Source: Lunularia cruciata (lineage: Eukaryota; Streptophyta; Marchantiopsida; Lunulariales; Lunulariaceae). From it: a DNA stretch of 64,000 nt. Below are positions 10,662 through 51,848 of this stretch, piece after piece (the stretch's first letter is position 1; every line of letters begins with the position of its first letter). A program made the translations under genes and the position numbers. The notes beneath the pieces were generated by a model. That model saw only the letters and a list, made by a program, of their open reading frames with translations, was not told the DNA's origin and made no database searches. The stretch is from assembly GCA_948567375.1 (NCBI GenBank), contig OX419760.1, forward strand, positions 60,260,911 to 60,324,910, given 5' to 3'.

Positions 10662-10665
10662 AAAA

Positions 10666-18278: not shown

Positions 18279-19955
18279 TACCTCTAAAATGGAGAAAACT
18301 TTATGCAACTCAGATGACAATAACTTTTCTTGTATTTCTTTGATTCAAATGATCTAGGCCTCAATGAAAATCATGTGAGGTAAGATTTCTAATGGTTTAA
18401 AGCAAGCTACAATCTGATCATTATAGTTCCTTTGACAAGCTCTCAAACTTGGCCAATTTTTTGTAGTTTCCTACCCTAATTTTGAAATCCCTAATTGAGT
18501 GTTTGCTCTTGGTTCTTGGTAACTTTTCCCATATTTCTGGATCAGAGGTACATATAATTCTCAAAAACACTCTAAAAACCTGAAAACTTCAATCACAGGC
18601 ATGAAAATAAGAGAATTGACATATAATCATGATTTATGATCAAAATGCTCTATTGAGCTTACAATAATATTTTCAATAGAAATTGTTGCATCAACTCTCA
18701 CTGGACCCAAAGCCAGAAAAGATTTCCATATAATTTATTGGTGCCCTTTTTTAACCTCTTACAAAGTTTAATTTCCTAATCCAACTCCAATCCCTTGACA
18801 TGGATCAATGCTTGAGCTCGGCTAACTTTTAAGCTCTACAGACCCAAGTATACTTAATCAAAGACGTTGAATTTTCTCTTTGAGAATTTACACAAAACCT
18901 TTGCACAAAGGTGCAAGACCTAACCACTAACAATACTAGAAATTTTCATAAAGTGATCCAAAACTCCTAACTTGATCATCAGCTCATCTTCAATACCTTA
19001 TTTCCCAAAGGCTCCAACTTCAATCAACCATATCTAATTCAAATTGATCAAAAACTAAAATCTCTTGCACTCAAGGCTATAAGCACTCTTTAACTCACTA
19101 AAAAATTAAAAAATTGTCTCACAAGGCTCCTCAAATTGTCCAATTGCTATGAATTCTAGCCCACTCTATTCACTTGATCATATCATCCTAAGAATCTCCT
19201 CAAATCACTTGTTTTCTATCTTTAAATTGTAGCTTGTTAGCTCCTCTTTCCAATTATGGTATTTTTTTCTCCAAATGCTCTTCCTTACCTCCTTTGATTC
19301 TTTAAGAAGTCCATGCTTCCCCTATTGAGGCCCAAACTCATGTAAATTTATCATTTAGCCTCTTCATTTTTTGACAAATAGACCCCACAACTCCACCTTG
19401 ATGCTCATGAATAAATTTAAATCCTTCTTCTACTATAAGAGCACATAAATTGTTGGATCTTAAACTTGCTAGTAAGTAAGCATTGGGAGGATGACTCAAT
19501 TTGGTTTTCCATTATAGACTCTATGAATGTTGCCTCAAAATGTGCCACCATCCAATCCCGTAAGCTATCATGGTGTAGAATTTGAGCATGATTAGAAAAG
19601 GATTTGGGAGTGGCAGATCAAGAGTATGGGACATCTCCTACTCAAATGCTTCCTCCAATGCCATGGTGTCCATGTTGAGCTAAAACCCTCACTCTCCACG
19701 TCCTCCTCTCACTCGAGTCTCCTAACCTAAAACACCTTCCTTTCTCTCAACTCTCCACCACCTATATACATTAGAGCACTTGAAAAGGATAAGATTGTAC
19801 TCCACATGGTTGGCCACTTAAATCCACATAGATTACTCACATGACAATAGCTCAATTGTGGGATCCGTCATACATCCTACTCCATCTTTATGGAGATAAA
19901 CCACACTAGTTTACTTTTTCATGGGCTATTCAAACCACAACAAAATAGTGCACTT
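18279..19955. repeat. LTR-like repeat R, copy 1
   Basis: Non-coding. Closely parallels about 50180-51848: shared stretches include GGCTAACTTTTRAGCT, CCCAAGTATACTTRATC and ATTTTGAAATCCC in the same order. Both copies end near CAAACCACAACA. Copy 2 borders the 3' end of element G coding sequence, so R is probably part of that family's LTR. Confidence 0.6.
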
Positions 19956-22275: not shown

Positions 22276-25200
22276 CTAAGATATCCGAGCTATGCAAGTC
22301 GTACGGTGTGTAGACTGTACGACTTGCATAGCTTGTAGACCGTACGGTCTACACACAACTAGAGCATCCGAAGAAACATCACCTAAGGTGATTGCTCTCC
22401 TATGGATTGCACCAGCCACTACCCTCTGTAGAGCAATGGACACACACTGTCTAAAATATGCTACAAAGTATGAGAGTGAGAGTGGTACCCCCTGACGCCT
22501 AACATGATAAGCTCTCGCGCACTCCCTGATAAATGTGTCAAATGCCGTGTCCATCGCTCCATATAACTCCAAGGCTAGAGGAACAAAGAGGTGACCTCAC
22601 TGCATGCTCCTATACTTGGAGACCTTGCGACCTGCTGCTGCACTCGCCGCCCATCCAAGGGGATGGGTAATCACTCCCTCCAAAACTGTATCCCGCGTAG
22701 GGTCCGTGACCACGACATCCGCTACTGTCATTTGATCATCTCGGACCAAGTATAAGTCTGCCTTGACATGTGTCATCTGCAAAGCATACGAACGCTCCTT
22801 CCAAGCCAAGTATCCACTCTCTCGTGCCATAGCAAACACTATGTCTCTAATGGCATCATGGGTAGCTATCCTCTGTCCTCCAAAAGGACACCGTGTCATG
22901 TGGACTGCCGCTGCATCAAGTGTAGAACCACACTCACAAGTGAGTAGTGAAGATATAGATAGGTGGACCAAACCTAGGCAAAACCTCATTGATGTAGAGA
23001 AAGTAGCCGGTGCGAGTCGGAAAGCCCTAATGCACGGTTGAGCTGGGATCCACAAGCCTACATCCTTGCCGGAGCAAGAACATAGACGTGCTTTAGTAGC
23101 TTGAGGAATGGACGAGTCAACTAAGAGAGAATGTAGCGTATGCTCACATTGTCGCTCCATCAAGGAAGACTGTAGACCTCTAGTCCAATCTGACAATAGT
23201 GAAGCAAACGGTGGAAAACCCTCTCGTGCTCGTGGGGATAGACTATCTCTCATCTGCCGCAATAACACCTGGAGAGAAAAGGATCCTCCCCCCACCTCTG
23301 TCACAGAAGTCTCCAAAACCGGCCTATCAACAACCACAAAACAAGAGAAAAGTAGGGGTGCCGAGAGAGCCCAACTACCCAAAAACGCTATAAGTGCCAT
23401 CTCTTCCGTAGAAAGCAAGCCAACCCCACCATATGAGATCGGTAGAGCCGTTTATCTATGTGCCAAATCCCTTGTCACACACTCAAAAGTCCTTGGTCCA
23501 ATAATATCACCAAAGACTCCCATAATCCTCCTATCAAATGCTCTCAGACGTGATAGGAAGGACGGTGAGGAGGGAACTATACGGATGAGGTAGGATGGTC
23601 AACGAGCAATACTGGAAGAGAGTATACCAAATGCCACATGCGGATCTCCTAGTAATAAAAGGTCATCCACATGGAGAACATCCTCTGCAAGGGCAGCGTC
23701 TAAGAAGCGTGTGACAAAATCCTCTGATCCTACTGGCACTCCAAGAACACGAAGTCCATCTGTGGATGTGATACACCCCTCTGAAAGCTCAAGGTGGGGA
23801 AGGATACCTTAAGGGGACCATGCTCTACACTTTGATACCTTGACTCTCAAGCCTACTAGATGTAGCCGGTAGTCAAGTAGTCATAGGCCTGCCTAATCTG
23901 ATCTACAAGGCCTACGATGTGTGTATCATCTGCCAAGGAAGGAAATACACAACCTGGCATGGCCAAAGTAGTAGATAGGAGAGCTCTAAAGTGAGCCATG
24001 GCAAATAAGGGCCCCCCCAAAGGATCTCTCTGACGTGTACAGACAGCAGACTCCAAGACGGTGACTCCTTCTTGTGAACCACCATGCTGGTAGTAAAGGG
24101 AAGCAAGAGAGCCATAAAAAGACCGCACAAAAGGAATGAGACTCGCCAAGGATCCACCAGCCTCCCTAAGCTCTCTAAAGATAGACAAAGGTGAGATGAT
24201 ATTAAAAGCGTTCTCAACATCCACCTGTAGGACGACCCACTCCGGATGGATATCTAGGAGTGCTCTAATGCCTAGAGATATAGACTCACATCCTCCAAGT
24301 GTAGCTACTCCAAACTGATGTGGACTAAGGTGCTGTTGAAAGTGAGAATGATGCTGAAGGACAATGGTATGGCTGACCAAATGCAAAAGATCTCTCCAAT
24401 AACAATCGGTCTAATGCCTCTCGTGTCCTTCTCCATCGCGAGAAGTCAACTAGCACCTAACACCCGACTAACAAACATAGGAATGTCTCCTCTCGCTACT
24501 ATTGCAACCACATGAAACAACTTGGTAAAACCACTAGAAGAATCATCTGCCTGGAAGCAATCTCTAAGGTGCTCATAAACCATCCCTGACAAACCTCTTG
24601 AGGAAAGGCAAGGGGTAGTGCACAATGCTTGTGCAAATAGTGACCTACCAAGACATAAAGGCTGCTCAGGCTGATAATCTAAGACCTCTAGTGGTATTCC
24701 TTCTACTGCTATAGGATGCAATGAGCGTAGGGAAGAGATGGTCTCATCAATAGGACTCGCTATAGACAAAGGGTGTAGCGCTCGTGCTGCTCTACTAAAC
24801 TCTCCCGCTTGACCCAATGTCATACATCGTCATAATAGAGTGGAATCTGTGGTATCCTATGGTGATGCTTGTCTCCTAAATCGTGTAGCCCTAACAGACT
24901 CCTCCTGAAGGGCTGCCCAATCCTCCGCTCGAAATCGACGAAATCTAGCCGCCACCTCTCTATGCCCCGCACGTCCCCCTCTAGCATAACAAAGATACCA
25001 TCGAGGGAGTAGGAGGAATAGGAACCACGCTAACTCGTCCAAGTGATCACGTGCAAAACGATCCAGTGGTAGGCAAAAAGCTTATCTAGCCTCATCATGG
25101 AGTGTGCGGAGTAGCCTATGGAATAGACATGGACATGGAAAACTAGTCTCGAATAACCCCAAAATGCAACCCGCCTGAGAAGCTAACCACTCCCATGACT

Positions 25201-26932: not shown

Positions 26933-28789
26933 ATGGCTCAATCTTCGCCTGATCGGTGGACTGGAGCAATCGAGGACGACATTATCGGGGGAGCTGTTGC
27001 CTATGGCAATCGACACCATTGTTCTATTTTCAGAGTCCCAAGGAACATACGGGATGTCAGCCAAGCGGATTACGAACCGCAGCTTATTCACCTCGGCCTC
27101 TACTCTCCCGAAGGCTACTCTGAAGGAACATGGAGTAGCATGGAGAAGCTGAAGCAAGAGATTGCAAGTGCCATAGTGCAAGTTCTGAGAACCCAGGGAG
27201 AGAAACGATACAAAGAGTGGAAAGGGATTGATGAGAAACTAGTGGCCAAGTTCATTTGGTATGAGCTATGCGATAGACTAATTCCCGATGGGTCCGTCCC
27301 AGACTATGGAGAAGGTAAGTTTGAATCGACACCCATTTGGAAAATTAAGCCCACATGTGACAACGTGGATAAACTGAGAGATCTATGCAAACTTTACGAC
27401 GATGCAACTGAGACTACTCCGTCTCACATGCGATTGATGCTTATACTCGATGCTATGTTCCTGATAGGTTTTCTCAGTTTTTATCGCCCAATGCCAATTG
27501 AGTTTGAGTCGTTTGAAGAGGACAGACGCAATCCTTTTCTTGACATCCTCTTACAACCAGGAATGTACTCCAAGCTCAGTACCATTACAGCGGACATGTG
27601 GTTGTTCGAAAACCAAGTTCCAATGTCTCTGCTCTGGGACGTCCTGGAAGCTGTATACTCTGCTTATGGCGAGAACAACGTTGCCACAAAAACCGTGGAT
27701 AGTGCTCTACAAGCGCTGATCGAGCAAGCTCTAATAAACATGTGCCATCTAATTCCTGGTTCAAGCAATAATCCTTCCGTTCTAGGGGTGTGGATAGAAA
27801 CAATACGGTTTGCGGAATGTAAACATCTGCTTGAGTGTATGTACAAAGTGATACAGTACAGAGAACCAAATCTCTGCCAGCCAATAACTGCTTGCTTACA
27901 GTCACCGGCAGTGACTTCAGACAGTGAGAGGTGTTCAAGGTCTGCAGAAGGAACTGTAATAGAGCTAGAGGTACCCCAAAAGGAGTTCATTGCCCGGTCC
28001 GACTACGTGAGAGAGCTTGGAGAGCAGCAACCGAACACAAAAGAGGTTGAGATCACTGTTGATGAGGATGCTCAATCACTTGCGTCTGAAATAGAATCTA
28101 AGTTTGAAGAAATTCCTCACTCAAGACCAACGGCAACTCTCTGGGCAACTCTCTCTTTTCGGCGGAGAAATAGTGGGAGGACAAAAGACGGAATCATGGG
28201 GTCTTTAACTACTAGACCCCATGTTCCTTCTCTGCCGACAGTCACAAATTTGCGGAGATCGGGAATTCAAGTCAAGGGAGATCGAACACCAGGCTGCAGA
28301 GTGTATCTGCGGGAATCATGGCGTTGGAACAAGCCCACTCTCTACATTTCACAGCTGAATGTCTTTGATAACACCGAAATGATCTTGCGGAATCTGGTCG
28401 CATTTGAGCTCGTAAATGCTCGCGATAAACAGCAGCTCATAAGTTATCTAACCTGTATGGATGATCTAATCGACACCGAAGAGGATGTGCGATTGCTTAA
28501 AGAAGGAGATAATCCAGTCATTACATACAGCTCTCTGGGCAATGACGCAGATGTGGCACACATGTTCAACAATTTGCTCCACAACTGTACCATATATGAT
28601 AACAGAGACTTGCAGGATATCCGTCGAAAAGTAAATCTTTTCTACGTGCAACAGGGGAGACGATTGTACACGGAATTTGTTGATACTTATTTTAGTAAGC
28701 CATGGGTAGTAGTTTCTTTGCTCGCTGCCTTCATACTCCTTGCCTTGACCACCCTTCAAACGGTGTACACTGTGGTAGGATACTACTGA
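26933..28789 (+). CDS. DUF247 (UPF0481-type) membrane-anchored plant protein, 618 aa
   Basis: Intact single-exon reading frame and the only convincing host gene. Family signature blocks are present in order. The N-terminal block is IFRVPRNIRDVSQADYEPQ (about 32-50), followed by LGLYSPEG, and the ME-LK helix start. The central DMWLFENQVPMSLLWDVL corresponds to the D-x3-LENQIPF block. The C-terminal part has NLVAFE, YLTCMDDLIDTEEDVRLL, a GNDADVAHMFNNL block and PWVVVSLLAAFILLALTTLQ, a predicted single membrane helix starting near residue 590 and ending at the C-terminus. The DUF247 family is plant-specific, often in large clusters. Members in grasses act in self-incompatibility, but the biochemical role is unknown. 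There is a roughly 100-residue polar insert (about 340-450) between the central and C-terminal blocks. The start is the first Met in frame, just after an in-frame TGA-containing leader. Confidence 0.93.
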   Translation: MAQSSPDRWTGAIEDDIIGGAVAYGNRHHCSIFRVPRNIRDVSQADYEPQLIHLGLYSPEGYSEGTWSSMEKLKQEIASAIVQVLRTQGEKRYKEWKGIDEKLVAKFIWYELCDRLIPDGSVPDYGEGKFESTPIWKIKPTCDNVDKLRDLCKLYDDATETTPSHMRLMLILDAMFLIGFLSFYRPMPIEFESFEEDRRNPFLDILLQPGMYSKLSTITADMWLFENQVPMSLLWDVLEAVYSAYGENNVATKTVDSALQALIEQALINMCHLIPGSSNNPSVLGVWIETIRFAECKHLLECMYKVIQYREPNLCQPITACLQSPAVTSDSERCSRSAEGTVIELEVPQKEFIARSDYVRELGEQQPNTKEVEITVDEDAQSLASEIESKFEEIPHSRPTATLWATLSFRRRNSGRTKDGIMGSLTTRPHVPSLPTVTNLRRSGIQVKGDRTPGCRVYLRESWRWNKPTLYISQLNVFDNTEMILRNLVAFELVNARDKQQLISYLTCMDDLIDTEEDVRLLKEGDNPVITYSSLGNDADVAHMFNNLLHNCTIYDNRDLQDIRRKVNLFYVQQGRRLYTEFVDTYFSKPWVVVSLLAAFILLALTTLQTVYTVVGYY

Positions 28790-36740: not shown

Positions 36741-37056
36741 TATTTTGATTCCCCAATGTGGTCTATAGTTTTGGTGCAGATTCCTCATCCATAATATTTT
36801 ATAGCACTTCATCAGCAAGGTTCAACCAAATAGTACTAATAGCTCCAAGATTTGCATCTTCATCTTCCTCATCCTCATCTTCATCACTTTTGTCCTCTTT
36901 TTCTTCTTTGGTGCTCTATGCAATCTTTGTTGGACAAGAAGGTCCTTCATCTTCAACTGCCAAAGTCCAAAATTGTTTTTCCCATCAAACTTTTCCACTG
37001 AAAATTAAGCATTTGATATGGATATCACCCCTACCATTGCTTTGTTGTGGACTTTG
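36741..37056. other. Copia 5' flank, no gene seen
   Basis: Contains a TCATCT-rich stretch near 36860-36910 that gives a serine-rich open frame of no significance. Presumably the start of the copia gag and its leader. Confidence 0.45.
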
Positions 37057-37166
37057 TTGTGTGTATATACATTGCTACACAACATACATTGCTCTCAACA
37101 TCATGTAGTATAGAAGCACAATTCACACATAAGTCATACATAGGCTCTAAAGTGCCACAATAAGCA
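37057..37166. repeat. 110-bp TG-initiated repeat at the truncated end of B1
   Basis: TGTTGTGTGTATATACATTG through AAGTGCCACAAT. It is nearly the same as 41756-41865, which abuts the truncated end of B2. Both are joined to family B sequence right after GTGCCACAAT. Confidence 0.85.
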
Positions 37167-37204: not shown

Positions 37205-39130
37205 TAAACAAGTTTAGCCTAGTCATCCGACTGATAGCTCGGTGGTGAGAGCTTGAGCTATTGCGACAATAGTTGAGTCACATGATGTGCTAGTTGAGAG
37301 AGTAATGTTATACCCCATGGGTTTTAGCATAAACTATTGGGAGGAGACAACCTCTTATAGATCCGGTTGGTAGTCTGGTGAGGGACAGGTATGTTGCCTA
37401 CCAGTACGCTTCAGTAGTCGTAGTCTTGGCTCACTATAGTCCGAGACCATGGCAGCATCAGTTTTAGCTTTTAGTGGTGCAGTTACTTGGCTTGGTGACT
37501 TGTTGGAGGGGAACGCCCATGCAGATGATACTCCAATACTAGAGGAGATCACTCGGATTTGGAGTACGAGTGGGATTGTTCCATCTACCTTGGATGTTCC
37601 ATTGTGGAGTTTAGAAGAGGTGTTGCAGCAGGATGCAGCAACATGCAGATGAGTTGGTGCAACAGGCTTGGAGTGGAGCCTTAGTACCATCAGGAGATGA
37701 GTGTGAGTATGAGCCTCCATAGTCAATTACTTTGACACCTCTAGATACCACACTCATTGCTTGGCAATATCCAATTGAAGGGATATGTCTATTGGAGTTG
37801 TTTGGTGGGATTAGCATCAGACTAGCTGCGGTATTACAAGCGGGTATACAAGTACAGAGGTACTTGTATGTAAAGAGAGATGAGACTGCTAAGCGAGTCT
37901 CTCTACATCATGTGGCACTTGGCCTATTGATACCCGGAGTTGTTATCGATGTCAGCAGTCAGAGGTTACCAAAAGGCCATACCAGTAGACATTTCCTTAC
38001 TGGGGGTGCATGATCTAGAGAGACATGGGCCTATTCACTTAGTAATTTCTAGATGGCCATGTTAGGGACATACACGTGTTTGTAGAGGTTTGGGTCTTCA
38101 AGATCCTCGTTTTGGTATGTTTTGGGAGATGTTACAAATACTATGACATCTCCAAGTTCATCAATCTGTTTCTCCAACTTACCTTTTGGAGAACATTCCT
38201 TTGATGGGTGATTCTTGCACCAGAGTGGTGGCAAGTACACATCAAGTCTATTCTTGGATGGGACCGATTGTATTGTTAGATGCAACTAGAGTGGAATCAC
38301 AAGCTCATCGTCTTTGTCTTTGGTGGACAAACCTCCTACCCAGAGAGGTTCTACAGTGTGCTTATGATGGGATTCAATGACTTGACCACATCCTTATTGA
38401 TGATATCTTGGATGTTGGGCGTCAGTCTCAAACAATGGTAGTGGTTGATAGGTCACCTATGGTAGTGGTGAACCTAATTGGACAGCTTAGAGCTGCATTT
38501 CCCCCACTCATGAGTATCCCAAGCTCTCATGCTTTTTGAGAGGGAGGACTTGGACTTGTTTAGGACTCATAGTTACAGTAGGTGGTGGAGCTCAACATTG
38601 AGGAGAGAGAGCGGGCGATGGGTTTTTGCACTGGTATTACCGTTGTTCCAATAGTGTTAGAGGCATCTAGGCATCAGGTGTTAGGTAAGGGTATGGACCT
38701 GAACTATTTGACATGGATTGTGAACCTTGGCTTGGCAGAGCAGTGTAGGATGTGCTTGATAGGCATAATCACTATGACACTTGTGAGCCTTGTGCCTATT
38801 GAGACAATTCAGGCACATGTTGGGGGTGATGGACCAAGTGGGTATGGTATTCTTGGGACACAACTAGTAGCTACTAGGGAGAGTGGTCTACTTGGAGTCC
38901 ATCCAGGTGAGCGTGGGCTACCTAGATTACACCCTTGGTCCACTTTGGATGCAGCTAGAGGACGTGTGGAGCTTGCAGCCAGAGTGGAGGGAGTTTTTCA
39001 CATAGAGGTTGGGACCTCTAGTGGTCAGGGGCATAACACTATTGCTCCCAAGGGCCCAATGTAGCAACCAGTTAGTATGTCTTCCACTCCTACTACAATT
39101 ACAGAAGATACTTGGGAGCCAGATCTTGGA
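37205..39130 (+). pseudogene. B1 protease end and DNMT3-like methyltransferase domain, decayed
   Basis: Codes for the same segment as B2 42235-44100, with scattered stops. Methyltransferase motifs remain in order. Motif I is ICLLELFGGIS with GIQVQRYLYV near 37780-37870. Motif IV is near 38054-38062 (W-P-C, catalytic Cys codon 38060-38062) and is followed by a TAG. The motif VI version is YLLENIPLMG near 38185. Motif VIII is AHRLCLWWTNLLP near 38310. After stops, the C-terminal block ERERAMGFCTGIT...LGKGMDLN...LTWI lies at 38600-38720. The target-recognition stretch between them (ILDVGRQSQTMVVVDRSP) retains CAG where B2 has TAG. It is not expected to make an active enzyme. It shows that the domain belongs to the element family, not to one chimeric copy. 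Confidence 0.85.
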
Positions 39131-39169
39131 CCCAAGCTTACTAGAGAGGAAAGACAGAGGGTTTGAAGG

Positions 39170-40560
39170 TTCTTGAGGAGTCACACGAGTTGTTTTGCCT
39201 TCATTATGAAGGATTTGAGTGCTCTAAAAGGACCTGGTATACGGATTGAGCTGACTAGCAATACACCAGTTTTTCAACGTCCTTATCGATATAGTGAGAT
39301 GGAGAGGATATTGATTCAAAGCCAGAGTAGTGACCTTTTTGAGGTTGGTTTGGTGGAGATTTCACATGGAGAGTATGCATCAGCGACAATGATGCCAGCC
39401 AAGAAGGATATGCATGGCAACTACATAGATAGGCGGATGTGTGGAGATTACTGTCCTATCAACTGATAGGCCAAGGCTGATTGGTATGCCATGCTTATAC
39501 CGGAGGAGATTTTTGATGCAATTGGGCATGCAAAGGTCTTCAGTACTTTGGATCTTTGAGTAGCAAGCATCAATTGCCAATCAAGGAGGAAGATAAGTCC
39601 AAGATAGCATTTTAGGCAATTGATCCTCATGGCAAGGATGTGTTATATCAGTGGAGGCTCTTACCATTTGGGTTAAAGAACGCTCTTGTTGAGTTCTAGA
39701 GGCTCATGGATAGGATCCTAACTAGATTGGATTTTGCTCAATGCTATATTGATGACATTTTGGTCTATAGCACTATTGTAGAGGAGCATGAGAGATAGTT
39801 GTTGGAGGTGTTTAAGAGGTTGAGATCTCTTGGACTCAAATTATATCTTGGGAAGTGTAGGTTCTTCCACGAGCAGGTTGAGTATTTGGGTCACACTATC
39901 TACCTCGGAGGACTTGGTGTTCAATAGATCAAGGTGGAGGCTATTGCACTTATTCCTCGACCTACGGATGTGAGCAGAGTGCAAGCATTCCTTGGGTTGG
40001 CAAACTTCTATTGCCGCTATGTAGAGGATTTAGTGCCATTGCAAAGGCCTTGATGAAGCTGCCCAAGCTTACATAAGAGTGGTGCTGGGGAGATGAGCAG
40101 GAGAGAGCTTCTGTAGAGCTCAAGGAGAGGTTGACAATTGCTCCTATTTTGAGGAGACCGATCAGAGGACAACCATTTCAGGTTCATACTGATTGGAGTA
40201 TGTTGGAGCTTGGAGCGGCGCTCACCCAGCATGATGATGAGGGGAAGGAGTTTGTGGTGGCCTATGCTAGTCGCTCCAACAATTCAGCGGATGCAATGTA
40301 TAGTTCATATGAGGGAGAGTGCTTGGCAATAGTTTGGGCAGTAGCACATTTCCAATGTTACCTATTTGGTAACCCTTTCACTCTCATCATTGATCATCAG
40401 CCACTAAAGTGGTTGATGGAGTCCGACAAGCTTTCAGGGAAGCTTGCACAATGGGCTCTAATTTTATAGGAGTATGATTTCACGGTTGTTCACAGATCTG
40501 AAGTGGTGAACCATGATGCAGATGGGTTGAGTAGAAACCCATGTCCTTGCCAGCAAGATC
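39170..40560 (+). pseudogene. B1 reverse transcriptase and RNase H
   Basis: RT begins PYRYSEMERILI, then VEISHGEYASATMMPAKKD and RRMCGDYCPIN at 39270-39466. In other frames come EEIFDAIGHAKVFSTLDL, LPFGLKNA and the catalytic box CYIDDILVYS near 39740-39770. RNase H lies at 40131-40469 with VHTDWSMLELGAALTQ, YASRSNNSADAMYSSYEGE and DHQPLKWLMESDKL. It is followed by DADGLSRNPC near 40515. Several stops and frame changes. The RT signature (GDYRPIN type with HGEYASATVMPAKKD) is unlike families A, G and H in this window and sets family B apart as a distinct Ty3/gypsy lineage. Confidence 0.88.
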
Positions 40561-40879
40561 AGACCGGAGCACATTGGCATGGTGAGACAAATGAGGAGAT
40601 GGTGCTAGGTTGGCATGCATCTGCCTTTCTATGTATATTTTTTGGGGCTTTTGTGGTATCTCTCTCAATGCATACCGGAGGAGTTATTGAGGTCATAGAT
40701 CCAAAGAGTGAAGATATTGGTATAGTTCAGCGAGACATTCATGATGATGTCTTAGTGATGGACTATCTTTGCACTGGTGTTGTGGGTGCCACAATTGGGG
40801 CTAAGGAGAGAGACCGTGTTCTTCAGCTAGCCAGACAGTTCAGATTGGAGGGCAGACACCTTTTGCATGTATGGGAGGA

Positions 40880-41645
40880 TGGTAGAGTGTGAGTAGTACC
40901 ACTTCCATCTCAAAGACCACAGTTGGTCCGTCATGCTCATGAGGAGCTAGGACATTTTGGAGTAAAGCATACATACAACTTACTCCAAAGTCATTATTGG
41001 TGGTGTGTTATGCAAACCAAGGTATAGCAATTTGTTGCCAGATGTGTGGTTTGTGATTGAGTCAGAGCATCATTCAATGTTCCTACGCCATAGTTACACC
41101 CATTACCTATCATGGTATTGGGTTACCATTGGAGTTTGGACTTTGTTGCACCTTTACCGCTGACTTTGAGACATCATTGGTATGTTTTGGTGATTGTGGA
41201 GCACTTCTCCAAGTGGATTGAGTGGGTGGTACTTCTTGACAAGTCTAGTGAAGTGATAGCTTACTCATTCCTGGATCAAGTTCTTAGTCATTTTGGTGCA
41301 CCAGCTGAGGTTTTGACTGATCAGGGTACAGAGTTCTTGGAGGAGTTTTAGGTCTTGTGTGACAAGGCTTTGATTGATCATTGTACTACATCCCAAGATC
41401 ACCTTGAGGCAGATGGATTAGCAGAGAGTGGTTCAGGTGGTGAAGAGAGGATTGCAAAAGTATGGTTGCAGAGAGGCCACTTGGGAGATTGGGATATCCT
41501 GTTACCTTGGTTGGCCATGGGGTATCGGTTCAGCTCGCAAGTCTCCTTAGCATCCTTCTCTCCGTACTTTCTTCTCTATCGACGAGATCCAGATTTGCCT
41601 GTAGCCATTTGTCGAGATGCTATTGTAGTTTTGGACTTGGATGAC
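40880..41645 (+). pseudogene. B1 integrase core
   Basis: Zinc-binding region near 40920-41060 (RHAHEELGHFGVKHTYNLLQ, then CVVCD with stops). The DDE core has SLDFVAPLPLT (first Asp), LTDQGTEFLEEF (second Asp) and ADGLAES (Glu, near 41410-41430). Coding continues to YRRDPDLPVAICRDA and is cut at 41645 by LTR A3. The C-terminal part is at 48541-49003. Confidence 0.85.
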
Positions 41646-41755
41646 TGTAATACTCCAAGGACAAGAGAAGAGAGAAAACACAGATTGCATACTCAAACAT
41701 TCGATGCCCCAAAGGAGCACCTTCTCTTTTTTACATAGACAAAGAGGATCTCCTC
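41646..41755 (-). repeat. Solo LTR A3, first part
   Basis: TGTAATACTCCAAGGACAAG... matches the start of the plus-strand reading of the A2 LTR (17695 onward). It is interrupted at 41755 by B2. It continues at 48076-48540. Confidence 0.88.
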
Positions 41756-41865
41756 TGTCGTGCGTATATACATTGCTACACAACATACATCTCTGTCAAC
41801 ATCATACACTATAGAAGCACAACTCACAAATAAGTCATACATAGACTCTAAAGTGCCACAATGGT
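41756..41865. repeat. 110-bp TG-initiated repeat at the truncated end of B2
   Basis: TGTCGTGCGTATATACATTG through AAGTGCCACAAT. Same sequence and same plus-strand orientation as 37057-37166, although B2 is on the opposite strand from B1. Confidence 0.85.
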
Positions 41866-42234
41866 CCGATCCAGATTTACTGGTGTGTCGCTAGTCAGCT
41901 CAATCTGTATACCAGGTCCCTTCAGAGCACCCAAATCCTTCATACTGAAGGCAAAACAACTCGTGTGACTCCTCAAGAACCTCCAAACCCTCCGTCTTTC
42001 CTCTCCAGTAAGCTTGGGTCCAAGATCTGGCTCCCAAGTATCCTCTGTAACTGTAGTAGGAGTGGAAGACGTACTGACTGGCTGCTACACTGGGCCCTTG
42101 GGAGCAATAGTGACATGCTCCTGACCACTAGAGGTCCCAACCTCTATGTGAAAAACTCCTTCCACTCTGGCTGCAAGCTCCACACGTCCTCTGGCTGCAT
42201 CCCATGTGGACCAAGGGTGTAATCCAAGTAGCCT

Positions 42235-44820
42235 TCACTCACCTAGATGGACTCCAAGTAGACCACTCTCCCTAGTAGCTACTAGATGTGTCCCAAGAAT
42301 ACCATGTCCACTCGGTCCATCGCCCCCAGCATGTGCCTGAATCGTCTCGATAGGCATAGGGCTCACAAGTGTCCGAGTGGTGATGCCTATCAAGCGCATC
42401 CTACGCTGCTCTGCCAAGCCAAGGCTCACAATCCAGGTCAAACAGTTTAGGTCCGTAGCCTGACCTAACACCTGACGCTTGGATGCCTCTGACACTACTG
42501 GAACAGCGGTAATACTAGTGCAAAAACCCATCGCCCGCTCTCTCTCATCAGCATTGGGCTCCACCAACTGCTGTAACTGTGAGTCCCAAACAAGTCCAGG
42601 TCCTCCCTCTCAAAAAGCATGAGAGCTTGAGAAACTCATGAGGGTGGGAAATGAAGCTCTAGGCTGTCCAACTAGGTTCACCACTGCCATAGGTGACCTA
42701 TCAGCCACTACCACTGTCTGAGACTAACGCCCAACATCCAAGATATCATTAACAAGAATGTGGTCTAGTCGCTGAATCCCATCATAACTACTTTGTAGAA
42801 CCTCTCTAGGTAAGAGGTTTGTCCACCAAAGATGAAGATGATGAGCTCGTGATCCCACTCTGGCTGCATCTAACAATACAGCAGGTCCCACCCAAGAATG
42901 GACCTGATGTGTACTCGCCACCACTCTAGTGCGAGAATCACCCATCAAAGGAACGTTCTCCAAAAGGTAAGCTGGAGAAACAAACTGATGAACCTGGAGA
43001 TGTTGTAATATCCGTAACATCTCCCAAAACACACAAGAACAAGGATCCTGAAGACCAAAACCACGGCCTGCACGTGTATGTCCCTCACATGGCCATCCAG
43101 AAATCACCAAGTGAATAGGCCCATGTCTCTCTAGGTCATGCGCCCCCAATAAGGAAATGTCTCTTGGTAGGGCCTTCTGGTAACCTCTGACTGCTGACAT
43201 TGGTAATAACTCCGGATACCAATAGGCCAAGTGTGCTACATGATGTAGAGAGACTCGCCTAGCAGTCTCATCTCTCTCTACATACAAGTACCTCTGTACT
43301 TGTATACCCGCCTGTAACACTGCAGCTAGTCCGGTGCTGATCCCACCAAACAACTCCAATAGGCATATCCTCTCTACTGGATACTGCCAAGCTATGAGTG
43401 TGGTATCCATAGGTGTCAAAGAAATCACCTCTGGAAGCTCATCCTCACACTCATCTCCTGATGGTACGAAGGCTCCACTCCAAGCCTGCTGCACCAACTG
43501 ATCTGCATGTTGTTGCAATGCCTCCTCGGAACTCCACAATGGAACACCCAAGGTGGATGGAACAATCCCACTCGTACTCCAAAGTTGAGTGATCTCCTCT
43601 GGTACTGGAGTATCCTCTGCATAGGCGTTCCCCTCCAACAAGTCACCATGCCAAGTAACTGCACCGCTGAAAGCTAAAATTGATGCTGCCATGGTCCCGG
43701 ACTGTAGTGAGCCAATATTGCCACTACTGAAGCGTACTGGTAGGCGACATACCCGTCCCTCACCAGACTGCCAACCAGGTCTATAAGAGGCTATCTCCTC
43801 CCAATAGTCAATGCTGAAACCCATGGGGTATAACATTGCTCCCCCAACTAGCACATCATATGACTCAGCTATTGTCACAATAGCTTGAGCTCTAACCACC
43901 GAGCTATCAATCGGATGACCAGGCTGAACCTGGACAACAAGCTCTCCACGTGTGATGTACTGTGTCGAACCACCACCTAGAGATGTCTGGATTTGAAATG
44001 GACACCTCTCCACATCAGTCTTTCGTAACTCCAGACCGACAACTGCAGCCTTCCCCAACATAAGGGGCTGCGCACCAGAGTCTAACAAGACTCTCTGTGG
44101 TGTATAGACCTTCCTTGAAGGTCCCACCAAACAAAAAACCCCCCTTTGGTTATTTAATAGGACAACACCAGGTGTAAACCGCGCTCTCTCAAAGGCCGGT
44201 CTAGCTGGCAACTCCTCCAGTCTAGCCGCTACTGCCTGCCATAAACCACTGGTCGCTGAACGGATCCCATGCTCCTCAACCAAGTCAACTCTACTACCAA
44301 CCACCTTTGCTCTAGTAGTAGGAACTGCACCATCCCTACTCTCACACAATGTGGCAGCCAACCGGAATATTGGGGCTAGGTCAACTCCCAATGTAAACAT
44401 GTCACTGGATGAAAACAAAGGATGCCGCATAATCAGCTGAGCCGCCCCCAACATCATGCTAGACTCAGTCTGTGTAGTAGCAGGTGGCTGACTAGTAGGT
44501 AGTACATCATGTACTCTATCACCACCTACTACACCTGCACTGGGACGTCTAGGAACCATGGATGTCATCTGCAATGCCTCAGATAGCGTGAAAGATTGGG
44601 GAAGTCTGACCTGTCTCCCAACCTCTCCTCTCTGTGGGTCCAACTCCATTGATGCTCCTCTAGGCTCTGGAGCACGTACTGCACTCCTAGTCACTGCTGC
44701 AGATGCATCCACTTGTGTTGCTCCGCACATGAAGTCCAAAGCATCTCTATCACCAACATATGAGGTGGAAGCCTCAGCACCCAAATCTGATCTCCTTTGA
44801 GCAATAGCCATACTAGCCAA
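42235..44820 (-). pseudogene. B2 protease and DNMT3-like cytosine-5 DNA methyltransferase domain
   Basis: A 698-codon open part (44820-42724) followed in the same frame by two more open stretches. Numbering from 44820: aspartic protease with VLLDSGAQPL, catalytic Asp247; then a DNA methyltransferase. Motif I is LLELFGGISTGLAAVL with GIQVQRYLYVERD (486-516), the AdoMet-binding loop. Motif IV is ISGWPCEGHTRAGRGFGLQD with catalytic Cys578 (codon 43089-43087). Motif VI is YLLENVPLMG (ENV 621-623). Motif VIII is RAHHLHLWWTNLLP (658-671). Past a TAG at 42724 and a TGA at 42610 come FPTLMSF, ERERAMGFC and RQVLGQATDLNCLTWI, like motifs IX and X. The motif order is the ordinary I-IV-VI-VIII-X, not the permuted DRM order. 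The G-I-x-T-G-L and GIQV-x-RY pattern resembles DNMT3. An RT-preceding segment (KDLGALKGPGI) ends it. Deposition of 5-methylcytosine is inferred from the family. Confidence 0.88.
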
Positions 44821-44825
44821 TCTCT

Positions 44826-45246
44826 ACTCCAACTGCTCAATCCGAGTAGCCATAGCTGTGTCAGAAGTAAGGGCAGGTACTGCACCCCTACTAGGTGTAG
44901 ATCCTCTACCACCACCTCTACCTCCTTGTCCTCCATGAACAGGAGCTCCTCTACTACCTGCCATAGTAGCCCTACCACTCCATAACTCCAGGTGTAGGTC
45001 AAAACACCGGTCACTAGTGTGACCAAATCTGTGGCAGTGCTCACACTGCCTCTGTGCTGGTTGTGATGCACCAGAGGTATCAGGTCCGCTGCCCTAAGTA
45101 CACTCTCTCCTATGGTGAGGTCCACCACAAGTCCAACAAGCAACACCACCACTCACTGGTTGCTGCTGACCCAAAAATGAGGGTAAGGGTCTAACTCCAC
45201 TAGGCCCTCCACTCGCTCCATAGGATTTGGGCTGTCCACCCTGTCC
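44826..45246 (-). pseudogene. B2 nucleocapsid region with two zinc knuckles
   Basis: In frame with gag and protease. A knuckle-like CWTCGGPHHRREC lies at about 45145-45105. A canonical CCHC knuckle CEHCHRFGHTSDRC (C-x2-C-x4-H-x4-C) lies at about 45054-45013. A glycine- and arginine-rich stretch follows. TAG stops interrupt it at 45094-45096 and 44824-44826. Confidence 0.85.
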
Positions 45247-46365
45247 TCAAAAACCAACTGGGCGTGGTGCACTCTGCTGCACTCTAGAAGAAGTCACAAC
45301 CGTGGAGGAGGTCTCCCTACCAAATCCAGATGTCACCACTCTCTCCTCCACCATGTTGAGCTCAATACGCTCAGCCAAACCAAAGACTATTGCCAAAGTG
45401 GGCGAAGTAGCCTGCAACAACGTAGCATCACGAACTCTAGGTCGCAACTCCCTATCCAGTATCCCATACCAAAACTGGACTGCCTGGGCCTCAGTAACTC
45501 CCTGAGTGAAACTGATCAGCTGCCTCATGCAAGTGTATGCCTCGCGTAGGCTCTCTCCAGCCTTCCGCTGGAACTCCCGCAAGCTCCTCAGCTTGTCAGT
45601 TCGCACTCTCTGGTAGTTCTGCCTCAAACACAGGAAGAACTCCACCATGGGGTTAAACCCCGGTACCACACCACCTCCTACAGCGGTACTTCCACTCGTA
45701 GTAGCACTATCTCTAGCTAGTGCACCTCCACTAGCTCTACCCACACTACTCAAGCTAGAACTTGTAGATACAGCCGATCTACTCCTGGCTACCGAGCCTA
45801 AAGTGATGGAGACATAGTGTGGAGACCAATACTGTCTCCATAACTCAATCTCCTCCAAATGAGCTCTCTTGAACTCATGGTAGTCATCCATCGGCGGACC
45901 CTCCAGATGCTGAAACAACCCCTTCCATGCCATGAAGGGTGTGAACAAAGTCAGGTTCCACATCTGCTACAGATCACACCAACTATCAAACTCCTGGATG
46001 AAGTCATCCAACTCAATGGTACCCACTGTACCAGAGTAACGCCTATGGCCTTTGGAGGCCCCATAAATCTTGTCCATGTCCCACAACAACGGTGCGGACA
46101 CACCAAGTGCACTCTCAACTGAATCAGCTCCTGTGTCGAACTCCAACTCAAAGTCAATCTCCTCCCTCACTGGGACCTGAGATACAGGCTGATACTGAGC
46201 ACCACTCCGAGTAAACCCACTGCGTACTGCAGGGCTAACTCCTCTAGAATCTCCAAAGAGCTCCGTCGTGACAAAGTTACCACAATAGCAAACCCGAACT
46301 ACCAATTGCAACCGCAAGTCGCAACCGCAAGTGCCCCACCAAGTGCCAACACCACCACGTGCCAA
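45247..46365 (-). pseudogene. B2 gag capsid region
   Basis: Retrotransposon gag fold: TLFTPFMAWKGLFQHL, then FFLCLRQNYQRVRTDKLRSL, then KAGESLREAYTCMRQLI and YGILDRELRPRV. This is the usual capsid pattern before a nucleocapsid. Reading starts at a Met at 46365. It is interrupted by a TAG at 45967-45969 and ends at a TGA at 45247-45249. The frame is the same as for protease and methyltransferase downstream, so the ancestral product was one gag-pro-methyltransferase-pol polyprotein. Confidence 0.85.
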
Positions 46366-46684
46366 TACTAACTAAGCACCACCCACTAATGTAACTCTAA
46401 CCGAGATAACTACACTAGGGGGAAGGTCAACCTATAACCTGCCATCATAACACGCACTCTCACGGTCTGCAGGTCATCACTTCCTGCCTCACCGGAGAGA
46501 AACAAAGGTAGTCTGACTGGTCATCACTCCAGCCTCACCACCGAGAGCACACCAGAGCACCAACGCTCAAAAGTCAGGGCACCTCACACAAACGTGGTGC
46601 ACAAATAGGAAGCAGAGAATGGAGGGGATCCAATCACAAGAAATCTAAACAAAAACCCTCTATCTCATAACACAACATGGGACT
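46366..46684 (-). other. B2 5' leader
   Basis: Non-coding. Resembles 49680-49990 in several blocks (AACCT-CCATCATAACAYGCACTCT, GGTCATCAC, GATCYAATCACAAGAA), so part of it is shared with the LTR-like region right of B1. Confidence 0.55.
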
Positions 46685-46697
46685 GACTCTGCCACCA
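46685..46697 (-). promoter_or_regulatory. Candidate primer binding site of B2
   Basis: On the minus strand TGGTGGCAGAGTC resembles the initiator-Met site TGGTATCAGAGCC with changes, and follows a TG...CA-type LTR end by two bases. Confidence 0.5.
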
Positions 46698-46699
46698 TT

Positions 46700-48075
46700 T
46701 GGCATTTGACATAAGAGCAGTTCGTCTCTAAGTCCTAAGCTACCAGGATCACCAAGAATGGGATCAAACTGCCTCTCCTAGCCAAAGCTACATGTGTATA
46801 GATAACAGTGGTGCAGTCACTAGGACAACAAGTGAGGGTGGACCAATTGGCTAGTGCACCAGTCCAGGAACAAGAGATCAAGGGGTCAAACCCTGTTGCG
46901 CACAATCTAGCAAGAAAGGCAGATTTTGCCAACCAATGACCAAGATCTACTCTAAACTAGCTAGCCTCACGCCAGCAAGCTGGCTTGCTGGCCCTTCTAA
47001 GCCTCTCATAGCCCACAGCCCTATGCCTCAAAATGCCAAAATTCAGCCAAATGAGGCCTTTCTTGTTGCCACTTCGAACCTCCTCCAAAATTGGCAAAAC
47101 TTCTCCAAATCTGTGAAAGTCCTCCAAACTAGCGAAACTCCTCCAAATCTGGCCAAACAGTGAAAACTCCTCCAAATCTGGCCAAACAGCAAAAACTCCT
47201 CCAAATTTGACGTAAATCTGACGTAAAATCTGACGTAAACCCTAAAGATGGCTGTCCGCCAAATCCTCCGCTAACTTTCTACTTGAGCCAAATTGACAAA
47301 ACGGGTTTCCAAATCACAATTTCATGAGAAGAGCTTCCCAACTCCACCTTCAATTTCACTTTCTGAGCCCAACTCGTAGCAAATTGGTCCTGCCTTCACC
47401 TCCTAAGCTCAAAATCACAACAGTGCTCGAAAATCGCTCCTTCTTTGCTCAAAATTTGGCCAGCGCTTCCGCACACCGTCCACCTAACTGCCAAATCTGC
47501 ATCACTTGAACAAGCTTCTACACACTAGGGAAACACAGATATTGAATCGAGCTACCACGATCCACCGAGCTTGGAGATACCACCAAGACTCAACGTTCCT
47601 GCACCCGATTTCCCCCTAACTTGACTTCTCTGATGTAATCAGATTGCATTACACTCTCAACTCAACTCAACTCAGATCAGTACTTGATCTATCACTCTAT
47701 AATCTGCCAACAACTGGGCACTGATTACAGTCAAGCCACACCCACTCAAGCATAGAGAATCCAAGTGACGCTCGCCGGCCTCTGTCCACCATAGCCAGGA
47801 ACTCGAAGGCTCAACATCAGAGAAGTGAGCTCTCTGGAGCTCACTTCAAAACTACCCCCCTTGGACTCGAGCTAGCACTAAAACCCTAATGGTCCCGCTA
47901 ATAGCACACTCGACGGTGTGAATGGTGCAAAGTGACGGTGGGCCCCACCGTGAAGTCAGTACCCCAAACACCAAATCTGACTGTCGGAAAGTAGTCCCTG
48001 AGAAATTGCTAGAATAACTATCACTAGAACTCTAGTGTTCGAGTAGCTAGATGCAGAACTACAAATGGCGTGACA
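46700..48075 (-). repeat. Candidate 5' LTR of B2 (about 1.38 kb)
   Basis: In element orientation it starts TGTCACGCC and would end ATGTCAAATGCCA before the primer site. The outer end is firm because of the CCTC target duplication. The inner end is inferred, since no second complete LTR exists to compare. No gene inside. 46849-46895 has a weak tRNA-like appearance. Confidence 0.5.
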
Positions 48076-48540
48076 CCTCCAAGGAAGTTCCACCATAGGA
48101 TTAGGGACACAGATAGGTGACATGTCAGCAAGCTCCACCCTTGGATTACTTACTTGGATGGGTGACATGTCTGGTCTAGGTCCTATCTAGTGGGTCAAAT
48201 AAGCTTTGACCAGAGGGAATCTTTTAGGGAATCTTCTTGTAGGAATTTCAAAATCACATGAGTAAGGTCCCATTGGAAAGCTCTCAACGAGACAAAGTTG
48301 AAAGGAGGGAAGGCCAGCCTCTCCTCCATTGGGGGGGGGAGAATGAGCACATTTTTGAGGCCTAATTCATCCGTTTAGGCCTCTGAAATTGCCTTCAAAG
48401 ATTTCAGGCATATTTTGATTCCTACTCTATTAGTAGAAGTCCCCTTTTGGTGATACATCTTTCTGATCTGTTTAGTCCATCAAGTGTAACATCCTTCTAG
48501 ATGTTACCAAACCAATTCTCACCTTTAAATCATATGTCTA
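48076..48540 (-). repeat. Solo LTR A3, second part
   Basis: CCTCCAAGGAAGTTCCACCA through GTGGGTCAAATAAGCTTTGA, a G9 run at 48331-48339 (complement of the A1 C20 tract) and AACATCCTTCTAGATGTTAC, all as in the A1 and A2 LTRs. The last bases (TATTACA) are missing at the junction with B1. Confidence 0.88.
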
Positions 48541-49003
48541 GATAGAGATCTTTTGGAGAGTGATGCCGATGGCCTTTAAGAACTTGGCGATTGCTCAACA
48601 TAGAGATACTTTACACTATGCTACTATTTGAGGAGGAGGTTATAGACCCTCAATCCGATGATTTCATCCAAGAGACTATGTATATTTACAACAGACAACA
48701 CCAATTACACTTGATGTTTTGACAGGCCGCACGATCTTGAGAGTGCATGAGGTTTTGCAATCTGGAGTCCTTGTGTTAGGACATGATGGTGTTGTTTGGA
48801 AGGATCATGTGCGCAATTTTGCGCCATGCCACCTCCCAAAAATTGATGGTACTATGGACCAAAGCTTGGCACTTGTACGTGCAAGCTTGAGGTGTATGTT
48901 ATGTGGCTCTTTTGGTGGAGCTACTACTATGTTAGTGTGTGATAGTTGTTCGATAGGATGGCATATGGCATGTATGACTCCTCCCCTCATGGTGGTTCCT
49001 TAG
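48541..49003 (+). pseudogene. B1 integrase C-terminus with PHD-type zinc finger
   Basis: Continuation of B1 after A3/B2. It reads MAFKNLAIAQHRDTLHYATI, a stop, then GGGYRPSIRRFHPRDYVYLQ and, from 48719, RTILRVHEVLQSGVLVL and DGVVWKDHVRNFAPCHLP, an integrase C-terminal beta domain. Next is a cysteine finger at 48893-48973: C59-x2-C62-x11-C74-x2-C77-x4-H82-x2-C85 (LVCDSCSIGWHMAC). This is the PHD pattern up to its sixth ligand. The last Cys pair is lost where the sequence breaks at 49003. PHD fingers bind histone H3 tails, so a chromatin-targeting role like that of chromodomains is a reasonable inference. Confidence 0.8.
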
Positions 49004-49027: not shown

Positions 49028-51848
49028 TCTTAGAAAACACAATCCCAAAGACCTCTCACAAAAGCACATCATAAAGCCCACTTAACATACATAAGAGGAC
49101 AATACAAAAAAACATTGTTCACTCCCCATCCCAAAAGCTACCTCCACGGTTGAAATAGGCTCATATCAACCTTCAAACCTTTATTTCTCATAGTCCCTCA
49201 TCACTGTCATCCAACTGAACTCTTGACTATTGACTTGTAGGACTTCATGAGTATTGACCACTCAAGATATCTAGTCACTTTAATACTCAACCTTAGTAAT
49301 GGCTGAACAAATCTAGACACGTGATTGTCTTTGTCCTCATCGCATGTTTCATCAATTATGTTTGCGCTTGCTCTTGATCAATCAATTCATTGATAAAAAG
49401 CCAAACATAATAATTAGCTAGGACTAACAAAGTAGCAAATAGGCTAAATTAGCCTAGAATATTCTAGAGGTATCTAGGAAACTTCTTGGGAAGCTTCTTA
49501 GCTAGCTTAGCTTGCACCCCAAGTAGATAGCTTCTTGAAGCTTCCAACTAACTTAGCTTACATGCCAAGTAGGCAGCTTTTAGAAGGAGGTTTCTTGAGA
49601 AGCTTCTTGGTATCATACTTTTCTTTTCTCTCTTTGGGAACACACAAGGTGCCTAGCTGTGGAGATTACAGATCAGAGGCTATAGGTAAACCTCTAACTA
49701 CTCATCCAAACACACGTGTTACCTAACCATTAGAACCCTCCACTCTCCTAACAAGTATTCTTGCTATCGGGTAGGGTAGTGACATGCAACCTAACCTATC
49801 ATCACAACATGCACTCTTGGTCTATTGGTCATCACGTTCAACATTACCAAGGAGAAATACATAGCACTCCTAGAAGGAAAGAACCTAAGCGCAACGCCCA
49901 CACACCAATCCAAACCAACTAGGCTTACAAACAAGCATGCAAGCACAAAGAGGATCTAATCACAAGAATGTGGAAAAAACTCTCTATGCTTTTTGTCAAA
50001 GAAGAGCTTCAAGGCTTTTGTGCTTTATCATCAAGCTAATTTCAACATGTACTCCAAGTCTCCTCCAAGCTGTACTTCAGATCTCAACAACTTCCTACTC
50101 CATGTGGGGATTTCTTATGTCTTCTTGATAGGGAGAACTCTGTGTAGATTATGTGAACATAACTCTTTTTTTATAGCTTGGATTTAAGTGTTCTACAATT
50201 CAATTGAAAGCTTGTGAGATAATCTTACCAATGGTATAAAATAAACCTCAATTGAATCACTGCAACTCCCCTGACAAGCTCTCAAAGTTAGCCAGGTTTT
50301 TGCAACTCTCAACCTAATTTTGAAATCCCCTTTTTAGGGTTTTTTCCCTTGGTTCTTGCAAAATTTCCCCTAATTTCTAAATAAGATGTACACTTGATCC
50401 TCACAAAATAGTCTGGAAATCTAAACTCTCAATCATAGTCACAAAAGTGAGAGAATTGGCATTCAATTAGGATTGAAAAAAGAAATGCTCCTCCAAGCTT
50501 ACAATAGTCTTTTTAGTAAAACGTATTGCATTAGATCTCACTCTCTATGAGTACAAATCTAACTAAATTTTCCACAATAGTTGGTCATGTTTTTGTTTAA
50601 TACTCTATAAAGTTTGATGGCCTAATTCAACCCCAATCCCTAGATATGGATCAATTCTTGAGCCGGGCTAACTTTTGAGCTTTGCAAACCCAAGTATACT
50701 TGATCCACGACATTGAATTCTCTTTTTGAAGAATTCACATAAAACCTTTATAAAAAGGTGCATACCCTAACCAAAAAAAGATTGTAAATTTTCATAAGGT
50801 ATCTCAAATCACAACTTGAGGAGTGACCAAAACTCCAAACTTGATCACTAGCTCTTCTCCATCACCTTACACCTCAAGAGCTTCAACTTCAATCAACCAA
50901 ATCTGATTTGATATTGATCCAAAACTGAAATTTCTTATGCTCAATACTGTAAGAAATTTTTCTACTCTCCAATTGCACTTACAAATAGTGAAAATGTTTC
51001 AAGAAGCTCTCTCAATTGCCTACTTTATGCTCTTGGGTATGACTTTCACCCCCTTGATTCAATTGATCATATCTCTCTTAGAATCAGCTCAACTCATATA
51101 ATTTCTATCTCCAAGTTGTAGCATGTTAGCTCCTTTTTCCAACCATTGTCCCCTCTCCCCAAATGGCTTCCCCAAACTCCTTTGAAGGTTGAAAAACTCC
51201 AGACTCTCCTCTTGGAACCCAATCTCTTGCACATTTGTCGTTTAATCTTTTTACTTTTTGACAAATGGACCCACAACTCCACCTTGAAGTTTATGAGTAA
51301 AAATTTAGGCATTCCCCAACTATAGAGGCACATTTATTGTCAAGTCCTAGACATGTTCGTAAGTAAGCACCCAAAGGATGATAGGATCTGGATTTCCTAT
51401 CATCAACTCTATGAATACCGCCCCAAAATGTGTCATCATCCAGTCCCGTAAGTCATCATGGTGTAAAATCTGAAGCTTAATGAGAAAAGGATTTGGGAGT
51501 GACAGATTGGGAGCATGGGACATTTCATGCTCAAATTCTTCCTCTAATGCTCTAATACTCACACTCTGTTACAACTCTCACTCCCAATGTCCTTCTCCTC
51601 CTCGAGACTCTCCAAACTAAAACACACCCTTGTCTCTCCACTCACCCTCATCTTTATTCATCAAAGCCCTCAAACATGATAAGATTGTAACCCACATGGC
51701 CAATTGTATACATGTACATAGATTTCTCACATGGCAACATCTCATCCATTGGATCTAGCAGACAACCTACCCCACTAATGTGGAGAAAAAAAAGATAAGT
51801 CATTTTTTACGAGCTATGCAAACCACAACACAACATCCACCTACTCTA
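49028..51848 (-). repeat. LTR-like region of element G, about 2.8 kb, includes repeat R copy 2
   Basis: Non-coding. Bounded on the left by a primer site, and on the right by the 3' coding end of G. It is therefore positioned like an LTR between two tandem internal regions. 49028-49160 recurs at 33101-33232. About 50180-51848 recurs at 18279-19955. 49680-49990 resembles the B2 leader. Whether it is one LTR or a composite I cannot say. Confidence 0.5.

Follow-up and report, generated by a model that had tools for sequence, protein, structure and literature searches.

A predicted DNMT3-type cytosine methyltransferase in the Pol polyprotein of a Ty3/gypsy-type retrotransposon family of a probable land plant

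The window, by which is meant the whole 64-kb stretch of DNA that was analysed, contains several gypsy elements. Two broken copies in it belong to one family and carry a predicted cytosine methyltransferase domain between protease and reverse transcriptase (RT); they are separated by 2.6 kb, face in opposite directions and are referred to here as the minus copy and the plus copy after their strands (Table 1). A further gypsy element at 3543-11344 is a young insertion, with LTRs (3543-4221 and 10666-11344) that are 99.4% identical and a single polyprotein ORF of 1611 codons at 4270-9105. This intact element has no methyltransferase domain and belongs to a different family, as its RNase H is 39% identical. 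The only host-like gene recognised in the window is a DUF247 gene, a single ORF of 618 amino acids at 26933-28789 (E = 1.7e-59; a plant protein according to Pfam), which we take to point to a land-plant host. Elsewhere, degraded minus-strand ORF pieces at 22597-24410 presumably derive from a non-LTR reverse transcriptase, judging by likeness, and the piece at 22600-23451 had no match in Pfam. In addition, a direct repeat of 1.7 kb with 70% identity (18320-19945 and 50159-51833) represents an old, unassigned element, and neither the Rfam nor the tRNA scan of the window gave a match.

Table 1. Features of the two element copies and of the repeat nested between them, with coordinates in the window.
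Feature	Coordinates	Strand	Basis or remarks
Minus copy: block carrying the copy	41756..48075	-	Insertion, TGTC...GACA ends
Minus copy: gag-like reading-frame pieces	45250..46371	-	Long stop-free stretches in the pol frame, 5' of the zinc knuckles; position only
Minus copy: two CX2CX4HX4C zinc knuckles	45138-45100, 45045-45004	-	Motifs in translation
Minus copy: putative retropepsin-like aspartic protease	43752..44160	-	DSGA motif at 44082-44071
Minus copy: predicted DNMT3-type cytosine methyltransferase, motifs I-VIII	42727..43401	-	PDB, Pfam, tree
Minus copy: methyltransferase C-terminal part, motifs IX/X	42403..42726	-	Alignment to DNMT3A, about 2 bits
Minus copy: RT-entry stretch	41879..42129	-	Same frame; 84% identical to plus copy
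Plus copy: protease end	37209..37388	+	tblastn, 73% to minus copy
Plus copy: methyltransferase, one internal frameshift, several stops	37750..38911	+	tblastn to minus copy
Plus copy: reverse transcriptase pieces	39700..39924	+	PF00078, two of four pieces tested, E = 0.0086 and 1.1e-4, both below the curated cut-off
Plus copy: RNase H	40077..40466	+	PF17917, E = 5.2e-32
Plus copy: integrase zinc-binding	40893-41024	+	PF17921, E = 2.9e-11
Plus copy: integrase core	41097-41348	+	PF00665, E = 7e-11
Plus copy: presumed integrase C-terminal region and partial PHD finger	48553..49000	+	PF00628 for the PHD finger, 48893-48988
Repeat X, left part	41646..41751	+	Interrupts the plus-copy integrase; edges approximate
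Repeat X, right part	48079 to about 48552	+	Beyond the minus-copy block; edges approximate

In the minus copy, a frame of 699 codons without a stop (42724-44823, minus strand) begins directly 3' of the two zinc knuckles, crosses the DSGA motif and enters the DNMT3-type methyltransferase domain. When the surrounding 4701 nt were shuffled 500 times with dinucleotides preserved, the longest stop-free run was 263, compared with 699 in the real sequence. Stops aside, protease, methyltransferase and RT entry lie in a single frame, and the copy breaks off at the start of the RT. The original prediction, made from the sequence alone, had placed gag, zinc knuckles, protease and methyltransferase in one minus-strand frame within 41866-44820. 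The frame is indeed shared, but it is interrupted by eight in-frame stops between the gag region (46371) and the RT remnant, and while the protease and the methyltransferase fall inside that range, the zinc knuckles and the gag-like stretch fall outside it. Two of the in-frame stops (42726-42724 and 42612-42610) precede motifs IX and X, which are in the same frame as motifs I-VIII. The RT-entry stretch is 39% identical to the pre-RT stretch of the intact gypsy element.

The assignments of the putative gag, zinc knuckles and protease of the minus copy rest on motifs and position. The gag-like pieces had no match in Pfam, the in-frame pieces containing the zinc knuckles had no zinc-knuckle match in Pfam, and the protease region had no match among PDB sequences and two weak, sub-threshold matches in Pfam (Asp_protease_2, E = 0.18; RVP_2, E = 0.29). 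All of the motifs quoted in the prediction were located, including the DSGA of the protease. Within the methyltransferase, motif I was found at 43362-43327, motif IV (SGWPCEG) at 43101-43081, motif VI (LLENVP) at 42966-42949 and motif VIII (LHLWWTN) at 42837-42817, followed by the C-terminal block with ERERAMGF at 42546-42523 and LGQATDLN at 42468-42445. Motif I, the PC of motif IV, the EN of motif VI and motifs VIII, IX and X are thus present in the canonical order I-IV-VI-VIII-IX-X, with motifs IX and X recognised by pattern and order only and with degenerate arginines in motif VIII.

The class of the methyltransferase was examined with a 225-residue piece of the minus copy covering motifs I-VIII, which was searched against PDB sequences at E up to 1. 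Among 38 distinct matches, the top 29 were all DNMT3A, DNMT3B or DNMT3C, with E ranging from 9.7e-9 (DNMT3A) to 2.3e-4, while the remaining nine included DRM (E 0.085 to 0.75; best score 15.7 bits), the HaeIII methylase and two unrelated proteins. A profile built from both copies likewise retrieved the 29 DNMT3 chains first, followed by DNMT2-type enzymes (best E 0.023) and DRM (0.48). In this profile, motifs IX and X align with DNMT3A in the right order at about 2 bits, which is not significant alone, and the C-terminal piece by itself retrieved no methyltransferase from the PDB, only a single meaningless match. Pairwise scores fall from DNMT3A (129) through DRM (101), DNMT2 (69) and M.HhaI (61) to DNMT1 (45). 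In a tree of six rows, with the window sequence on a long branch and no CMT row, the window sequence groups with DNMT3A (94/94), and this pair groups with DRM (100/99). The DNMT3-like class named in the prediction is therefore upheld by the 29 best of 38 PDB matches and by the grouping with DNMT3A, and the domain is here assigned as a DNMT3-type cytosine methyltransferase.

Profile searches of domain databases gave weaker results. The prediction had pointed to the Pfam DNA_methylase family (PF00145), and a match to it was obtained (E = 4e-4), but its 20.3 bits lie just below the curated cut-off of 22; when stops were read through, the score rose to 21.9 bits against the same cut-off. The plus copy had no match to PF00145. 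The NCBIfam dcm model matched with E = 2.6e-5 and 24 bits, far below its cut-off of 100.65. An AlphaFold model computed from three window rows had a pLDDT of 26.6, too low for use. A chance motif match is rejected on sequence grounds for the methyltransferase domain because of the PDB scores, the tree, the shuffle control and the motif positions.

Other classes of cytosine methyltransferase were considered as the origin of the domain. Plant DRM1/2 enzymes have a related catalytic domain, as seen in the weak PDB matches, the pairwise score and the tree, but their motifs stand in permuted order, unlike the order found here, and a DRM origin is ruled out by motif order and scores. A DNMT1 origin is ruled out as well, since DNMT1 is present in the PDB collection searched and yet was unmatched at E up to 1 in both the single-sequence and the profile search. 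The same holds for CMT if PDB entry 4fsx, which is listed as DNMT1, is a plant CMT; it was unmatched in the search with motifs I-VIII. Additionally, a scan of viral contigs found no relatives, and a scan of prokaryotic genome contigs gave six pattern matches, none of which was confirmed.

The plus copy spans 37209-41645, resumes near 48553 and has the same domain order as the minus copy. In self-comparison, 37209-39270 of the plus copy is 88.6% identical to 43932-41879 of the minus copy (11.4% different), with no dip in identity at the edges of the methyltransferase. At the protein level, tblastn identity is 79-89% over motifs I-VIII and 77% over the C-terminal part. Relative to the minus copy, the plus copy has an indel of 10 nt before the methyltransferase and one of 2 nt inside it, both of which shift the frame; past the second, the frame continues to the RT entry, stops aside. 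Each copy holds parts that are missing from the other. The PHD finger matches PF00628 with 27.4 bits (cut-off 24) over profile positions 1-32 of 47, and the ORF that bears it stops at 49003, before the last zinc ligands of the C4HC3 pattern. The stretch preceding it is presumably the C-terminal region of the integrase, by likeness. From strand, order and position, we infer that the PHD finger belongs to the plus copy. Chromoviruses carry a chromodomain at the place where this PHD-type chromatin-reader module sits.

The order PR-RT-RH-INT in Pol is read from two overlapping broken copies, in which RT and protease are sub-threshold matches only. As judged from these copies, the family is a Ty3/gypsy-type LTR retrotransposon of a probable land plant with a predicted DNMT3-type methyltransferase between protease and RT in Pol, and probably with a PHD finger after the integrase. 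As originally proposed, the domain is located within a gypsy-type polyprotein, between its protease and RT, and this position recurs in the second copy. Family members lacking the domain were also sought, and the only other copy that the window contains has it. No intact copy of the family was found within the 64-kb window, both copies being broken.

The arrangement of the two copies records a succession of insertions, in which the plus-copy integrase is interrupted by a repeat, X, and X is in turn interrupted by the block carrying the minus copy. The sequence CCTC flanks this block at 41752-41755 and 48076-48079. Other copies of X lie at 11620-12444 and 17758-18275, where relatives without the insert span 11781-12361 and about 17758-18262. 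On the 18-kb relative, the halves of X share precisely 4 nt (CCTC, at 17811-17814), while the 12-kb relative differs at the insertion spot and CCTC is absent there. CCTC is thus a probable 4-bp target-site duplication of the minus-copy block. Since the minus copy lies in a block inserted into X within the plus copy, the plus copy is the older of the two and the minus copy came later. Because the domain is present both in the older plus copy and in the later-inserted minus copy, it is a family trait rather than the property of one insertion; a domain private to a single insertion is ruled out by the second copy.

A direct LTR pair was not found for the minus-copy block, only the TGTC/GACA ends and the 4-bp duplication, and when the two ends of the block were compared with each other, no match beyond the TGTC/GACA termini was found between them. 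Repeat X has several copies in the window, one of them inside the plus-copy integrase, and may be a solo LTR. The two occurrences of a separate 110-nt repeat (89%) share one orientation; that at 37052-37161 adjoins the plus copy on its 5' side and that at 41753-41862 the minus copy on its 3' side, so that the repeat is inverted relative to the elements. It recalls the DIRS-like repeats of a published Klebsormidium element.

Differences between the two copies carry a record of both decay and selection. Counting cytosines on either strand of the overlap, those of the minus copy read T in the plus copy at 22 of 84 CG, 53 of 192 CHG and 49 of 746 CHH sites; conversely, plus-copy cytosines read T in the minus copy at 9 of 54, 14 of 109 and 28 of 776 such sites, respectively. 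This pattern fits long methylation at CG and CHG sites, as in plants, with later deamination, and the CHG-type decay together with the DUF247 gene indicates a plant host.

Over motifs I-VIII, the copies differ by 37.5 synonymous and 44.5 other changes (Ka/Ks 0.29). The synonymous fraction of 0.457, against 0.292 in a context-matched null, was reached by 1 of 2000 placements; 8 of 2000 reached it in a null for the reverse direction, and 33 of 2000 once CG- and CHG-site differences had been excluded. Compared with the rest of the overlap, the excess has p = 0.008 by Fisher's test. Sliding the frame by one gave 32.3 synonymous differences of 82, and by two 13.5 of 81. No significant synonymous excess was found in the protease end, the linkers or the RT entry (944, 191 and 1090 of 2000 for the flanking segments), nor in the segment with motifs IX and X, where the synonymous fraction was 0.152 against a null of 0.249 (1878 of 2000; Ka/Ks 1.67). 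Within motifs I-VIII, the signal is confined to the first half (0 of 2000, versus 346 of 2000 in the second). Overall, selection on the domain before both copies died is moderately supported; the missing excess over motifs IX and X, the restriction of the signal to the first half and the count that persists with the frame slid by one speak against it. The PC of motif IV and the EN of motif VI are kept in both copies. Motif VIII, in contrast, reads AHHLHLWW and AHRLCLWW in the two copies where DNMT3A has AHRARYFW, with the second arginine lost in both. Given the stops in both copies, it is likely that neither makes an active enzyme.

Retrotransposon-borne cytosine methyltransferases have been described in dinoflagellates and charophyte algae, namely in Symbiodinium and Klebsormidium (PMC5890265), as the original prediction had stated. 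The closest known system is KnitGypsy-Dnmt3 of Klebsormidium nitens, reported to carry a non-rearranged Dnmt3-type domain in a Gypsy-type Pol ORF, with evidence of purifying selection (PMC5890265). Its domain showed no activity in yeast, a result which the authors call inconclusive, whereas de novo CG methylation in yeast is reported for the SymbioDIRS-Dnmt3 domains (PMC5890265). Compared by its published description, KnitGypsy-Dnmt3 shares with the present family a Dnmt3-type domain inside a Gypsy Pol in a streptophyte. It differs in its charophyte host, the present family being in a probable land plant, and in its DIRS-like repeats, as the insert here ends without a repeat beyond TGTC/GACA; furthermore, the present family has part of a PHD finger after the integrase, and none is mentioned in the description of the Klebsormidium element. 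The Symbiodinium elements SymbioDIRS-Dnmt3 and SymbioLINE-Dnmt also encode a cytosine methyltransferase, which for DIRS is of the Dnmt3 class (PMC5890265). These have DIRS and LINE backbones and a dinoflagellate host, unlike the gypsy backbone with integrase found here, for which methyltransferase activity is predicted. A later paper cites the streptophyte and dinoflagellate cases but names the LTR elements Copia, where the 2018 paper has Gypsy (PMC12344493; PMC5890265).

Among land plants, cellular DNMT3 exists in non-flowering species (PMC6453930) and is a possible donor of the domain. PpDNMT3b of Physcomitrella likewise has a DNMT3 domain in canonical order, but is described with a DUF3444 partner and no polyprotein, whereas protease and RT flank the domain here (PMC6453930). 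Capture of a nucleic-acid-modifying enzyme by a plant gypsy element has been reported in orchids, where Ty3/gypsy elements carry an AlkB m6A RNA demethylase; this enzyme is encoded in an additional ORF and is not a Pol-internal DNA methyltransferase (PMC9289625). The sections considered of one paper contain nothing on methyltransferase-bearing elements in land plants (PMC10538959), and the terms methyltransferase and PHD are absent from the main text of a survey of plant LTR retrotransposons (PMC6317226). No report of such an element in land plants appears among the open-licence literature matches listed.

The reading that we favour, with a probability of about 0.5, is that the Pol-borne methyltransferase would place de novo marks on the cDNA or at the integration site, and that the PHD finger could steer the integrase. 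It draws on the architecture, on the constraint signal and, by analogy, on the published yeast activity of the dinoflagellate DIRS DNMT3 domains; the steps that follow translation we infer. In active copies, the methyltransferase would be made together with RT and integrase and would travel in the particle, where its de novo methylation could fall on the double-stranded cDNA or else on the integration site. New copies would then arrive pre-marked like host heterochromatin, and the PHD finger could direct the integrase to a chromatin state. The outcome would be tolerated, self-limited copies.

The strongest alternative, though an unlikely one, is that the captured domain is only a passenger in the family, either structural or no longer active, and is kept as a linker or fold for processing of the polyprotein. 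Both copies lack the second arginine of motif VIII, the C-terminal segment shows no constraint, and the Klebsormidium element gave a negative result in yeast, all in keeping with this. Retention of the motif IV PC and the motif VI EN in both copies argues against it, as does a synonymous excess found over motifs I-VIII and not over the protease end, linkers or RT entry. Moreover, both copies are pseudogenes, and therefore the residues they have lost tell little about those of active ones.

Less probable still is a main action in trans, in which the methyltransferase targets host chromatin rather than the element's own cDNA and so silences competitors or nearby genes. The de novo action of DNMT3 enzymes on chromatin and the probable presence of a PHD-type reader in the same polyprotein would suit such a role, but fusion into Pol beside RT would place the methyltransferase in the particle. 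Finally, both copies could stem from one chimeric accident, the landing of a DNMT3 retrogene in a single element, that was then duplicated locally, in which case the domain would not belong to the family. This would account for two inverted copies 2.6 kb apart at one locus, but is very improbable given that the block holding the minus copy lies within another repeat and has a 4-bp duplication, that each copy has parts absent from the other, that they diverge by 11.4% with identity level across the domain edges, and that the minus-copy frame continues into the protease and the RT entry.

Beyond self-marking by the element, a broader and more tentative possibility, which we hold to be somewhat doubtful, is that the family represents an old gypsy lineage, equipped with both a writer (DNMT3) and a reader (PHD), which has persisted from charophyte algae to land plants and methylates its own cDNA or target site; this would run against the published view that such elements were lost from land plants. 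The architecture itself is that of the published KnitGypsy-Dnmt3; new here are the probable land-plant host and the partial PHD finger. Transposon-encoded DNA methylases have been described in print as absent from land plants, and the present family contradicts this statement (PMC6338049). The near-miss Pfam score (20.3 versus 22) may partly explain why proteome surveys have overlooked such domains. In plants, DNA methylation is directed chiefly at retrotransposons, and an element encoding its own de novo methyltransferase would invert this usual relation. This raises the testable question of whether self-methylation aids the survival of the element in its host.
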